This document shows, piece after piece, positions 10,991 through 15,438 of a DNA stretch of 64,000 bases. The stretch spans positions 2,356,001 through 2,420,000 of the forward strand of contig BPGE01000001.1 in assembly GCA_026002875.1 (NCBI GenBank), given 5' to 3'. This stretch comes from Bryobacteraceae bacterium. Its GTDB lineage: Bacteria > Acidobacteriota > Terriglobia > Bryobacterales > Bryobacteraceae. Position numbers and translations under genes: made by a program. Below the pieces are notes generated by a model that was given only the letters and a program-made list of their open reading frames with translations, did no database searches and was not told the origin of the DNA. Position 1 is the stretch's first letter. The number at the start of each line of letters is the position of its first letter.

Positions 10991-11027
10991 TGACACCGGC
11001 CGCAGGCTGCATTAAGAAACCTGCGTG

Positions 11028-12407
11028 ATGAGGTATTGCGCATTTTTCGTCCCGGCTTTGCTTCTCGCTCAGGGCCCCTACCTTGCGGAAGGCTTGCGGA
11101 TCGGCGAGATCACGGAAAACTCGGCATCGGTGCGTTTCCGTCTTTCGCAGCAGCCCCGGCAGAACAAAGGGCGGTACGAGCCGCCGAAGTACGAAGGCCA
11201 GCGCCCCCCGGCGCTTCCCGAGGACCAGGATCCCTGGCTCCTGCCCGGCGGCGTGCCCGGACTGCCCGGCCGCGCGCGGCTCTGGGTGGCCACGCGCCCG
11301 GATATGAAAGACGCCAAACCCGGCGAGTGGCTCCAGGCGGAAACCAAAAGCGACTTCGTCCTGAAAACCTCCTTCACCGGCCTTCGCCCGGGAAGAACCT
11401 ATTACGTCGGCGTGGAAATCCACTCGAAACCCGACAAACCCGCGGCATCCTTCACTACCGCTCCGGAATCGAACCGCCGCGCGCCAGTCAAATTCACCGC
11501 GGTCACCTGCCTTGCCTACCGTTCTCTCGACCATGAAGAGGGATTTGAAATCTTCCCGTCCATGGAGAAAATCGCCCCGCAATTTGTCGTATTCGCCGGG
11601 GACAATGTCTATTACGACAACGACCCGCCTCTGGCCAACACCACCGAGGCCGCCCGCTATCACTGGCAGCGCCTCTACGCCATGCCCCGCCCCCTGGCCT
11701 TCTTCTCCAGGACCCCGCAATACTGGATGAAGGACGATCACGACACGCTCTGCGACGATTGCTGGCCCGGCCGCGATCCGGACTGGATGAAGCCGATGAC
11801 CTTCGCCGAAGGGCAGCGGATTTTCCTCGAACAGACGCCCATTGAAGGAAAAACCTACCGGACCTTCCGCTGGGGCAAAAGCCTGCAGATCTGGCTCCTG
11901 GAGGGCCGCGATTCCCGGTCCCCGAACGACGCGCCCGACGGCCCCGCGAAAACCATCCTCGGCGCCGAACAGAAAGCCTGGCTGAAGTCGACGCTCGACC
12001 AGAGCGACGCGGACTGGCGCATTATCATCAGCCCCACTCCCTGGGTCGGCCCCGACCGCCCCGATAAGGCCGACAATTACGCCAATGCCGCCTTCGCGAC
12101 GGAAGGGAAGGAAATGCGCGCCTGGGCGTCGCAGAAGAAAAATGTCGTCGTCATTTGCGGCGACCGCCACTGGCAATATCATTCCGTGGACCCCGAGACC
12201 GGGCTGCACGAGTTCAGCACGGGTCCCGCGTCAGACTCGCACGCCGGAGGCAGCCCGGGCGAGGACAAGCGCTACCACCGCTTCCATCGCGTGGCCGGCG
12301 GCTTCCTCAGCGTGAGTGTCGAACCATCCGCTGCGGGCAGCAGGCTGATTCTGCGCCACCACGACGTCAAAGGCGCCGTCGTGTACGAATTCTCCTTGGG
12401 CAGCTGA
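11028..12407 (+). CDS. PhoD-like metallophosphatase, exported
   Basis: The 459-residue protein has a short hydrophobic leader (MRYCAFFVPALLLAQG) and an N-terminal beta-sandwich-like region with PGRTYYVGVEI as in PhoD-type enzymes. A calcineurin-like catalytic domain follows. Metal-binding motifs are FAGDNVYYDND near residue 195, KDDHDT near 237 and CGDRHWQYH near 380. PhoD enzymes hydrolyse phosphomonoesters or phosphodiesters outside the cytoplasm; the substrate here is unknown. ATG 11028 directly follows an alternative GTG. The spacer after it holds a large tandem repeat array. Confidence 0.82.
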   Translation: MRYCAFFVPALLLAQGPYLAEGLRIGEITENSASVRFRLSQQPRQNKGRYEPPKYEGQRPPALPEDQDPWLLPGGVPGLPGRARLWVATRPDMKDAKPGEWLQAETKSDFVLKTSFTGLRPGRTYYVGVEIHSKPDKPAASFTTAPESNRRAPVKFTAVTCLAYRSLDHEEGFEIFPSMEKIAPQFVVFAGDNVYYDNDPPLANTTEAARYHWQRLYAMPRPLAFFSRTPQYWMKDDHDTLCDDCWPGRDPDWMKPMTFAEGQRIFLEQTPIEGKTYRTFRWGKSLQIWLLEGRDSRSPNDAPDGPAKTILGAEQKAWLKSTLDQSDADWRIIISPTPWVGPDRPDKADNYANAAFATEGKEMRAWASQKKNVVVICGDRHWQYHSVDPETGLHEFSTGPASDSHAGGSPGEDKRYHRFHRVAGGFLSVSVEPSAAGSRLILRHHDVKGAVVYEFSLGS

Positions 12408-12501
12408 GCGCACACTGCCCCCCTGCGCGAAACCGCCCCCGGGGTGCGAGCCGCGCGCGAATGACCGCTGACTCCCGGCGGCTCACAACCGTGCCTCGCT
12501 G

Positions 12502-13195
12502 CCCTCTCCCAACGGATTTCCCCTCGCGCTTGCGCGAGGACTGCATCCCAACTGTGCCGCCCATGCCCTCTCCTTCGGATTTCCCCTCGCGCTTGCGCGA
12601 GGACTGCATCCCAACTGTGCCGCCCGTGCCCTCTCCTTCGGGTTTCCCCTCGGCCTTGGCCGAGGGCTGCATCCCAACTGTGCCGCCCGTGCCCTCTCCT
12701 TCGGATTTCCCCTCGCGCTTGCGCGAGGGCTGCATCCCAACTGTGCCGCCCGTGCCCTCTCCTTCGGGTTTCCCCTCGGCCTTGGCCGAGGGCTGCATCC
12801 CAACTGTGCCGCCCGTGCCCTCTCCTTCGGGTTTCCCCTCGCGCTTGCGCGAGGGCTGCATCCCAACTGTGCCGCCCGTGCCCTCTCCTTCGGATTTCCC
12901 CTCGGCCTTGGCCGAGGACTGCATCCCAACTGTGCCGCCCGTGCCCTCTCCTTCGGATTTCCCCTCGCGCTTGCGCGAGGGCTGCATCCCAACTGTGCCG
13001 CCCGTGCCCTCTCCTTCGGATTTCCCCTCGGCCTTGGCCGAGGACTGCATCCCAACTGTGCCGCCCGTGCCCTCTCCTTCGGATTTCCCCTCGCGCTTGC
13101 GCGAGGGCTGCATCCCAACTGTGCCGTCCGTGCCCTCTCCTTCGGATTTCCCCTCGCGCTTGCGCGAGGGCTGCATCCCAACCCTGCCCCCCAGG
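12502..13195. repeat. tandem array of eleven 63-bp hairpin units
   Basis: Eleven near-identical units begin at 12502, 12566, 12629, 12692, 12755, 12818, 12881, 12944, 13007, 13070 and 13133; the first is 64 bp, the rest 63 bp. Each holds a GC-rich hairpin with 8-9 paired bases and a TT loop. Two stem versions occur: A = CCCTCGCGC/GCGCGAGGG and B = CCCTCGGCC/GGCCGAGGG, in the order A A B A B A B A B A A. The two versions differ by two swapped base pairs, so pairing is kept. Other changes are ggattt/gggttt before the stem and gagga/gaggg after it. The whole 12408-13371 spacer between the phosphatase and hydrolase genes holds no credible gene; flanks 12408-12501 and 13196-13371 look unique. Long reading frames cross the array on both strands only because 63 is a multiple of three. 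Confidence 0.93.
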
Positions 13196-13371
13196 CTGCG
13201 ACAGCAGGCGGTCTCCAACAAGACCATGCGGGTGACCACTCGTTCCTGCCTCGTTGCGGGCTCTGGTCAGCGTAGCTCCAGCCCCTGCCCCCGTGTTGCT
13301 GTCTCGCATGGCCCCCGGCCCTCCCTTGTCCGCGCACGCAGGACTCTGATACCAATCAGGCAGGAGTTTCC

Positions 13372-15438
13372 ATGCATCGGAGAACTTTCCTCGCCGTTTC
13401 TGCTCTTTCCGCAGCCGCTCCCCTGCCAGCCCGAGCGCAGCGCCTGGGCGAATGGACGGCCCTCGGCACGCTGGCCGAAAAAGACGGCGCCACGCCCATC
13501 GACGGCGCACGCTGGTTCGAGGCCGAAAAGACGGGCGACGGCATGGCCTACAGCTTCCGCCCCGGACTGCTGGCGGGCGCGAAAGCCATCGCCTGCGACA
13601 TGCTGATCGACGGCCGCGACGTCGTCGCTTTCCGCATCACGCTGGGCGAAGGCGAAAAGGGACGCCGCTTCCGCTTTGATTTCGGCGGACTGCCGCAGTG
13701 CAGTTTCCGCGTGCGGATGGACCTGTCGCTCGTCGACCAGAACCGCTGGATGGCGGACCGCGAAGCCGCGTTCCTCAAGCCTCTCTGCGGAGGAGACCGC
13801 GTGGACCTCGCCCTGGTCGACCGGTTGACCTTCACCGTGCTGCGCAAGGCTCCGCGCACCGCCCGCTGGTGCATGACCGATCTTCAGGTGCTTCCGAGAA
13901 TGCCCGAAAAGCCGGCCGAGCCCGTGCTGCCGAAAGGCCCCCTGATCGACGAGTTCGGCCAGAGCACGCTGCACGAGTGGCCCGGAAAGACCCGCAGCGC
14001 GGATGAACTGAAGCAGCGCCTCTCCGTGCAGCTCCAGCTGGCGCCGGAACAGAAGTGGCCGGAAACGTTTTCCCGCTGGGGCGGCTGGAAAGAGCGGAAA
14101 CTGGGCGAGGGCAGCGGCTTCTTCGCGGTGAAGAATGAAGGCGGCCGCTGGTGGCTGGTCGACCCGGACGGCTACGCCTTCTGGTCCACCGGGCTCGACT
14201 GCGTGCGCGTGGACTGCGAGGCGCGCGTCGACGGGCTCGAGACGGCGCTGAAATGGCGCCCGGAAAAGCCCGAATACGAAGCCGCCTGGAGCCAGGACCG
14301 CCCCGGTCGCCAGGGGGCGCGATTCGTCAATTTCCTCGCCGCCAATTTCATCCGCGTCTTCGGCAGCGAGGGATGGCGCGAAAAGTGGGCCGCCATCGCC
14401 CTGGCCGAGATGCGCCGCCTCCGCTTCAACACCGTCGCCAACTGGAGCGAGTGGGAGATCGCCGCCCGAGCCTCGTTCCCCTATGTCCGCCCCCTGAATT
14501 TCCGCCCGGCGCGCAGCGGCGCCATCTACCGCGACTTTCCCGACATCTTCCATCCCGGCTTCGAGCAGGACGCCGCCGACTTCGCCCGCCAGCTCGAGAG
14601 CACGGCGAAAGACCCGGCCTTCATCGGCTACTTCCTCATGAACGAGCCCACCTGGGGCTTCTCGTCCGAGCTGCCCGCCGCCGGCATGCTCTACACGTCA
14701 GACCTCTGCCACACGCGCGAGGAACTCGCCCGCTGGCTGGCAGGAAAATACGAAACCGCCGCCGCGCTCTCGAAAGCCTGGTCCATGGAGGTGACTTTCG
14801 ACCAGATCGCCCGCGGGCGCTGGCGCAGGCCGCTCTCCAGAGAGTCGCAAGCCGACCTGCGCGAGTTCAGCGTGCGGATGGTGGAGCGCTACTTCACGGC
14901 GCTGTCCCGCGCCTGCCGCAAGGTGGACCCCAACCACCTGAACCTGGGCATGCGCTGGGCCGGCGTGCCCCCCGAGTGGGCCGTGGCCGGCATGAAGAGC
15001 TTCGATGTCTTCAGCCTGAACAACTACCGCGAGAAGCTCCCCCGCGACGTCTCGGACAGGATCCACGCCATGCTCGGCATGCCCGTGCTGATTGGCGAGT
15101 GGCACTTCGGCGCGCTGGACGCGGGGTTGCCAGCCACCGGACTCGGCCACGTCCGGACGCAGGCCGACCGCGGCCGCGCCTACCGCGTCTATCTCGAGGA
15201 CGCCGCCGCCAACCCCAACTGCGTGGGCGCGCACTGGTTCACGATGTACGACCAGAGCGCGCTGGGCCGTTTCGACGGCGAGAACTACAACATCGGCTTC
15301 CTCGACATCTGCAACCGGCCGTATGCGGAAATCTGCGCCGCAGCCGCAGCTTCTCACGAGCGCATGTACCAGGTCGCTTCCGGCGCGGCAGAGCCTTTCT
15401 CCGACGCGCCGGAATACCTGCCGATACTCAGCGTCTGA
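13372..15438 (+). CDS. exported glycoside hydrolase, clan GH-A (agarase/beta-galactosidase-like)
   Basis: The 688-residue protein starts with a Tat-like signal (HRRTFLAVSALSAAAPLPARA). An N-terminal beta-sandwich-like region of about 200 residues follows, then a TIM-barrel. GH-A features are the acid/base glutamate in FLMNEPTWGF near residue 424 and a likely nucleophile in LIGEWHFGALD near residue 573. The segment GRWWLVDPDGYAFWSTGLDCVRVD resembles agarase-like and GH42/GH50-like enzymes. The polysaccharide it acts on is not known. AGGAG precedes ATG 13372. It follows the hairpin repeat array. Confidence 0.72.
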   Translation: MHRRTFLAVSALSAAAPLPARAQRLGEWTALGTLAEKDGATPIDGARWFEAEKTGDGMAYSFRPGLLAGAKAIACDMLIDGRDVVAFRITLGEGEKGRRFRFDFGGLPQCSFRVRMDLSLVDQNRWMADREAAFLKPLCGGDRVDLALVDRLTFTVLRKAPRTARWCMTDLQVLPRMPEKPAEPVLPKGPLIDEFGQSTLHEWPGKTRSADELKQRLSVQLQLAPEQKWPETFSRWGGWKERKLGEGSGFFAVKNEGGRWWLVDPDGYAFWSTGLDCVRVDCEARVDGLETALKWRPEKPEYEAAWSQDRPGRQGARFVNFLAANFIRVFGSEGWREKWAAIALAEMRRLRFNTVANWSEWEIAARASFPYVRPLNFRPARSGAIYRDFPDIFHPGFEQDAADFARQLESTAKDPAFIGYFLMNEPTWGFSSELPAAGMLYTSDLCHTREELARWLAGKYETAAALSKAWSMEVTFDQIARGRWRRPLSRESQADLREFSVRMVERYFTALSRACRKVDPNHLNLGMRWAGVPPEWAVAGMKSFDVFSLNNYREKLPRDVSDRIHAMLGMPVLIGEWHFGALDAGLPATGLGHVRTQADRGRAYRVYLEDAAANPNCVGAHWFTMYDQSALGRFDGENYNIGFLDICNRPYAEICAAAAASHERMYQVASGAAEPFSDAPEYLPILSV

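Follow-up and report, generated by a model that had tools for sequence, protein, structure and literature searches.

Direct-oriented tandem arrays of a possibly REP-like hairpin family dispersed across a Bryobacteraceae genome

According to the consulted part of Quentin et al. (2018, PMC6006769), class 3 TnpA-Y1 proteins are rare, occur in Planctomycetes, Acidobacteria and Proteobacteria, carry a Y----Q motif and go with atypical hairpins having a CnGA foot. The same text gives about 600 copies of class 3 hairpins for Solibacter usitatus, states that experiments on class 3 are still needed, and describes IS200/IS605 transposases as acting on the lagging-strand template. For P. fluorescens SBW25, the part consulted of PMC3116915 describes evenly spaced tandem REP arrays whose orientation is reversed between the two chromosome halves. 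A literature search returned no description of arrays like those reported below and no paper on tandem repeats of Bryobacteraceae.

The window, meaning the whole stretch of 64,000 nucleotides that was analysed (2356001-2420000 of a single-contig genome of 4,863,736 bases), yielded six rows in Tandem Repeats Finder, by far the strongest of which is a 63-bp period repeated 11.1 times at 12486-13182 (score 1168). The first-pass annotation had claimed an 11-copy array of 63-bp hairpin units, head to tail, in which both arms of the stem are swapped together; its register is kept in Table 1, and the claim is confirmed by this row and by the stems, which follow the order A A B A B A B A B A A with matching arms in 11 of 11 units. 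On the G-rich strand the arms read CCTCGCGC/GCGCGAGG in class A and CCTCGGCC/GGCCGAGG in class B. The hairpin itself also stands, and the TT loop assigned to it is better replaced by CTTG on the plus strand, the predicted fold of a unit being an 8-bp stem with a 4-nt loop as DNA and mostly also as RNA. The folding energy of single units is not exceptional when compared with dinucleotide shuffles (z of -0.8 to -2.0 as DNA and -1.4 to -2.1 as RNA); what lies above chance is the tandem repetition and the recurrence across the genome. The alternation of A and B is mildly unusual, 15 of the 330 orders of seven A and four B alternating as much. An assembly artefact, a concern raised in the first-pass annotation, is an unlikely source of the array since its units differ from each other, the assembly consists of a single contig and elsewhere the unit is found between different flanks. 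No stop triplet occurs in the array on either strand and, consequently, four spurious ORFs of 290-483 aa run through it (12155-13606). A protein-coding repeat was rejected, other arrays stepping by 61, 62, 64, 50 and 103 bp. A CRISPR, which shares regularly spaced tandem palindromic repeats with the array, was rejected too, the spacers being nearly identical in the window array and related between arrays.

Table 1. Features of the window (positions counted from its first nucleotide)
Feature	Position	Strand	Remark
tandem array, 11 units of 63 bp	12502..13194	-	G-rich, GCAG-footed strand = minus
hairpin 1, stem class A	12522..12539	-	stem reading
hairpin 2, stem class A	12585..12602	-	stem reading
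hairpin 3, stem class B	12648..12665	-	stem reading
hairpin 4, stem class A	12711..12728	-	stem reading
hairpin 5, stem class B	12774..12791	-	stem reading
hairpin 6, stem class A	12837..12854	-	stem reading
hairpin 7, stem class B	12900..12917	-	stem reading
hairpin 8, stem class A	12963..12980	-	stem reading
hairpin 9, stem class B	13026..13043	-	stem reading
hairpin 10, stem class A	13089..13106	-	stem reading
hairpin 11, stem class A	13152..13169	-	stem reading
left flanking gene, PhoD-like phosphatase (PF09423)	11025..12407	+	context only
right flanking gene, 688-aa protein without Pfam match	13372..15438	+	context only; present in 4/4 congeners

As the first-pass annotation had proposed, the unit was searched against the complete genome. 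The unit pattern, with at most one mismatch, gave 445 matches (259 forward and 186 reverse) in dozens of mostly intergenic arrays, and 0 matches when read backwards as a control. The window array is one of dozens of related arrays across the genome and not a local oddity. Copy number was taken from this pattern; a DNA search with the window unit gave 322 matches in the source genome, and the covariance-model counts reported further on are limited per genome by the number of candidates scored (28). In 32 loci including the window, 29 of which hold units, 350 units form 42 clusters or arrays (the unit regular expression gave 351, and a false unit at 1453657 was excluded from the array, gene and orientation counts); 36 of these have at least two units, 32 at least three, and the largest has 24. 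Mixed orientation was found in none of the 36 multi-unit arrays. Units are mostly spaced by 61-65 bp, with lesser groups at 39-40, 50, 85-88 and 102-103 bp and some gaps of up to 353 bp. With a crude codon-usage gene caller and without genome-wide control, 41 of the 42 arrays were placed in predicted intergenic regions and the remaining one within the end of a predicted ORF, the neighbouring gene pairs being convergent in 16 cases, divergent in 5, co-directional in 19 and undetermined in 2. Among 248 A/B-like stems with a CAAG loop, the foot on the G-rich strand is GCAG in 239, and that on the C-rich strand is mostly TTTC (168) or CTTC (54).

The statement that no known repeat class fits overlooked the REP-type elements. 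Like REP, REPIN and BIME sequences with their RAYT proteins (class 2 TnpA-REP), the family consists of short, GC-rich, intergenic palindromes in hundreds of copies with a conserved 5' tetranucleotide, and the tandem arrangement is known from SBW25, as far as the consulted part of PMC3116915 goes. Unlike canonical REPs, it has GCAG in place of the GT[AG]G foot (0/248 stems), shows no inverted pairs of REPIN or BIME type (both orientations in 0/36 arrays), and the RAYT-like gene of the genome (3427295) is without flanking repeats. With class 3 TnpA-Y1 systems, as described in the text consulted of PMC6006769, it shares an acidobacterial host, a small Y1 protein and a gene near hairpins abundant in the genome; the class 3 motifs HVH, W[TA] and Y----Q correspond loosely to THVH, WAD and YVVEKQ in a 149-aa protein encoded here, the published forms being NHVH and an E before the Q. 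The CnGA foot of class 3, on the other hand, is present in 0/248 stems on either strand, GCAG standing there instead (CnGA occurs within 12 nt on the C-rich strand in 80/248), and head-to-tail tandem arrays are not mentioned in the consulted part of PMC6006769, this comparison being by description and not by the published sequences. IS200/IS605 elements such as IS608 and ISDra2 resemble the family in having a Y1 HUH protein nearby, hairpins on the same strand and an apparent link to the lagging-strand template, and differ in that the unit here is without a gene and without identified left and right ends. Since both the GT[AG]G and the CnGA foot tests fail, the family was filed neither as canonical nor as class 3 REP; it is regarded as a REP-like variant, perhaps served by a class-3-like protein.

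The arrays most likely descend from a small palindrome of mobile type that dispersed into the spaces between genes and then grew through local duplication. It is with moderate confidence that the family is read as REP-like elements, a hairpin spread by a Y1/HUH protein and multiplied as direct-oriented tandem arrays. Each element would consist of the conserved GCAG lying 5' of the GC-rich hairpin on the G-rich strand. While the DNA is single-stranded, chiefly as lagging-strand template, a TnpA-like Y1/HUH protein would recognise the hairpin and spread copies of it into intergenic regions; the most promising candidate encoded in the genome is the 149-aa protein, whose gene lies amid repeat copies. 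The element (a core of about 40 bp plus spacer) would then be multiplied head to tail, all units pointing one way, by unequal recombination, slippage or further TnpA action. The hairpin would have to stay paired in order to be copied or tolerated, stem classes persisting as fully paired alternatives and arrays becoming mosaics of them. The strongest alternative, held here to be rather unlikely, is a passive satellite, i.e. a palindrome amplified by nothing but slippage and recombination and dispersed by ectopic recombination or gene conversion, into which an IS200-like element with its own 58-bp ends landed and brought the Y1 gene. Flanks that are more alike within than between arrays (6.4 vs 11.2 mismatches over 44 flank positions, A-A comparisons) are in keeping with such passive amplification; a core better conserved than the spacers is not.

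The orientation of the arrays follows a replication-type strand asymmetry and is independent of gene direction. In 37 of 42 arrays (p = 4e-7) the G-rich strand of the array coincides with the strand carrying more G at third codon positions, and at the level of loci the agreement is 26/29, with 8/9 in the hold-out loci (p = 0.04); the few exceptions include the arrays next to the 149-aa gene. When genes of one strand were considered at a time (the mixed locus L024 being left out, and genes of one locus not being independent), plus-strand genes had a skew of +0.16 near plus arrays and -0.25 near minus arrays (p = 2e-8), and minus-strand genes +0.36 and -0.04 respectively (p = 6e-11). If the G-rich strand is the leading strand, the G-rich strand of the repeat would be the lagging-strand template. 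Such a gene-independent bias is not an obvious product of recombination and speaks against passive dispersal, even though slippage on one template could give it. A two-replichore test around dnaA (4.445 Mb) was weak (28/42 arrays, p = 0.04; 20/29 sites, p = 0.06). The third-codon GC skew flips sign often between loci, e.g. L023/L024 and L039/L040/L041, as if the chromosome had often been inverted, and most arrays keep step with it. Among the other hairpins, 9 of 10 locus-level counts of a second family accord with the skew, largely at the same loci, a third family agrees at its one locus, the hairpin beside the Y1 gene disagrees at its one locus, and a fifth hairpin (TCGCGCCTGCGGCGCGA) is split 2 to 2.

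All eight stem pairs are Watson-Crick in 320 of the 350 units and in 24 of 30 units from a hold-out set of nine further loci, whose six imperfect stems include half-swapped arms; in total, 344 of the 380 stems read are fully paired. Class A comprises 245 units in 38 arrays, class B 58 units in 20 of 42 arrays, class C (CGCCGCCC/GGGCGGCG) 12 units in 7 arrays and class D (CATCGCGC/GCGCGATG) 5 units in 4 arrays. The covariation test suggested in the first-pass annotation was run on 127 of the 257 distinct units found among the 350, drawn at random with at most five per locus, against shuffles that break the relatedness among units. Cells of the inner stem were paired in 99.1% of cases, two-sided changes were found in 57 cells (8.3 in shuffles, no more than 5 after sliding), and the covariation score was 0.172 vs 0.064. 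Paired change thus exceeds the shuffles, two other measures being weak: further pair types showed a mild excess (11 vs 8.9, reached in 22/500 shuffles), and the number of pairs with any two-sided change did not lie above the shuffles (4 vs 3.6, reached in 262/500). An outer helix (columns 8-11 with 39-42) was rejected, the column pair 10-40 being unpaired in 92/127 units. The comparison of unpaired with paired stem changes, which the first-pass annotation had named as decisive, came out divided, unpaired changes being more numerous as types (21 vs 3) and paired variants as units (75 vs 30). The imperfect stems, 30 of 350 units, fall into 21 rare one-sided or recombinant types and the paired variants into three classes only (58, 12 and 5 units), and there is therefore no sign of a continuing arm-to-arm correction. 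These alignments support a constraint on the stem genome-wide, and the persistence of paired stem classes argues against an entirely passive repeat.

For the origin of the paired swap, the first-pass annotation had offered either a structure under selection or a copying process acting on whole hairpins; the constraint on the stem holds genome-wide, and an origin of the swap at this site by such copying is not supported. This class appears to be an old variant that did not arise in the window array, since it occurs in 20 of 42 arrays and is linked elsewhere to its own flank allele: T at column 40 accompanies 35/58 B units vs 46/245 A units genome-wide (Fisher p = 1.3e-9, the units not being independent), and among the 10 arrays that have two or more units of each class, 6 show A and B flanks 11.4-13.0 mismatches apart, as distant as the flanks of A units from different arrays (11.2). 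In the window array the flank differences are 2.9 mismatches for A-B, 4.4 for A-A and 1.3 for B-B, and these nearly identical flanks of A and B units point to hairpin exchange or flank homogenisation inside the array. The earlier suggestion of growth by duplication of an A+B pair fits the window array; unit 3 equals unit 5, unit 7 equals unit 9, and units 4/6 and 8/10 are one base apart, so that at least two duplications of an A+B pair are probable. What looks like a paired swap is old stem classes mixed together in an element of mobile type; it is neither a local curiosity nor a regulatory RNA.

The genome has two matches to PF01797, the RAYT-like gene at 3427295 and the 149-aa gene at 2167718 (28.1 bits, cut-off 23). 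The former scores 78.6 bits against NF047646 (cut-off 80) and has no match to the repeat in the surrounding 10 kb. The 149-aa gene is embedded among repeats: full units of array type begin about 57 bp past its stop and occur again about 2 kb upstream, and a partial core ends 100 bp before its start. Its protein is a candidate for acting on the array hairpins. However, an exact 58-bp repeat (L069 7548-7605 and 8369-8426, genome 2167-2168 kb) stands on either side of the gene in direct orientation; it begins in array-type sequence and contains not the array hairpin but a different one, GCAGCCGCACCAGCGGCTGC, and no exact copies of the latter were found elsewhere in the loci examined. This makes the role of the gene uncertain: rather than the partner of the repeats, it may be an IS200-like insertion inside the array, bounded by ends of its own, as passive amplification supposes, and it is this 58-bp repeat that lowered confidence in the REP-like reading to the moderate level given above. 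In 60 other genomes, four congeners included, the next best match to the protein is 38% identical, and the array repeat is absent or scarce in those of the 60 that were searched for it. An anti-phage role of the protein was rejected, with no PADLOC match.

Two homologues of the 149-aa protein are encoded at 2182253 and 800893, and all three proteins carry HVH or HAH and Y----Q. At L070 4974-5781 (genome 2182 kb), hairpins of a second family (GCAGCCCGAAGGGCTGC, 45 copies in the loci examined) stand on both sides of one class-3-like gene, and at L071 4300-5522 (genome 800 kb) those of a third family (GCGGTCCGAAGGACCGC) on both sides of the other. The class-3-like ORFs of L070, L071 and L073 had no Pfam match at 0.001, and phmmer searches of two of the Y1 proteins against solved structures returned no Y1 transposase. 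Outside the source genome, repeated perfect hairpins were found at 2 of 18 homologue loci, and this rarity of repeats near class-3-like genes elsewhere also favours passive amplification.

Matches were found in 3 of 41 genomes by DNA search, the source genome included, and in 5 of 200 genomes of the family Bryobacteraceae by covariance model, with 18, 4 and 1 model matches in three congeners, 1 in one other genus and 0 in the fourth congener. By the model search, the repeat family is nearly confined to one genus of Bryobacteraceae. The richest congener (G004, 18 matches) has no copy of the 149-aa gene, which counts against the REP-like reading; four of its matches are on one possibly misbinned contig, G004:C28, where the array at 2246368 has 4 units against 23 here. 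Identity of this contig to the source genome is 99.4% left of the array and 93.8% right of it, as compared with mostly 80-86%, with extremes of 70 and 90%, along other long stretches of G004. Identity so far above most of G004 indicates possible misbinning or recent transfer; the contig may be from a misbinned strain of the source species with its array collapsed in assembly. The difference of 23 and 4 units would suit passive growth of arrays, and may equally reflect such a collapse.

Between two convergent genes, a repeat-rich stretch of about 1.1 kb holds the array at 2600683-2601282; the site of this array is empty in 4/4 congeners, the matched flanks being 12-31 bp apart. That an array sits between genes which nearly touch in four congeners speaks against passive amplification alone. 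At 2940182 the gap is about 1.15 kb here and 0.38, 0.78 and 0.51 kb in G004, G003 and G002, the flanks being on different contigs in G001. The flanks of the second array of L031 are apart in all four congeners, and those of the unit at 2934478 are separated in G002, a closed genome, and split between contigs in the remaining three. As for the window array, its two neighbouring genes are 3.8 kb apart in G004, with a 1103-aa outer-membrane-receptor-like gene on the opposite strand between them, 5.7 kb apart in G003 and far apart in G001 and G002, and the syntenic stretches of all four contain nothing that matches 12409-13314. In congeners, the flanks are not neighbours at the second array of L031, the first unit of L032, the third array of L024 and the window array. 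Arrays may mark rearrangement points, breaks away from arrays also occurring.

An extension of the REP-like reading, doubtful at present, is that direct neighbouring hairpins serve as left and right ends for a class-3-like TnpA, a single-stranded circle of about 63 nt being excised from the lagging-strand template and reinserted beside another hairpin. Were this true, the family would be a transposase-driven satellite, a gene-less miniature IS200-like element producing a tandem array, and excision and reinsertion of units would together explain uniform orientation, strand bias, common period and array growth. Three class-3-like genes occur in the genome, all of them close to hairpins, along with a hairpin family that numbers 445 copies or more in dozens of arrays, congeners having few or none. 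This genome is a natural system in which to ask whether hairpins are spread by class-3-like proteins, whether their orientation is determined by replication and by what route REP-like elements become satellites.

It is very improbable that the arrays act as RNA, i.e. as attenuators, 3'-end stabilisers or small RNAs with pairing selected in the transcript. The pairing fits RNA as well as DNA, and the convergent neighbours outnumber the divergent ones by the crude gene calls given above; paired stem changes, however, need not imply a functional RNA, some arrays lie between divergent genes, the orientation tracks skew rather than gene direction, and in 200 genomes the family hardly occurs outside one genus. 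Attenuation or an RNA product, as put forward in the first-pass annotation, found no support. Intrinsic terminator and promoter roles were rejected, no such site being found within the array (12300-13500 holds one terminator-like site, outside the array, with 0.7 expected by chance, and no promoter-like site), and so was a known RNA family, Rfam at gathering threshold giving none in the array and only a tRNA in the window. Gyrase or IHF bind the BIMEs of E. coli, and least credence of all is given to the possibility that the host uses the arrays as protein-binding sites organising the chromosome and thereby keeps their orientation and pairing, as the orientation bias relative to strand asymmetry and the placement outside genes would allow, given that the spacing is variable and that such sites would not be essential in the genus because three of four congeners have few or no copies (0, 1 and 4 model matches).

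Two minor observations were made alongside. A MAG labelled Chloroflexi (L047 1696-1717) has one exact match to the core pattern, without neighbouring units. An unrelated tandem repeat of 122 bp, in about five copies, lies near a repeat array at L028 4063-4677.
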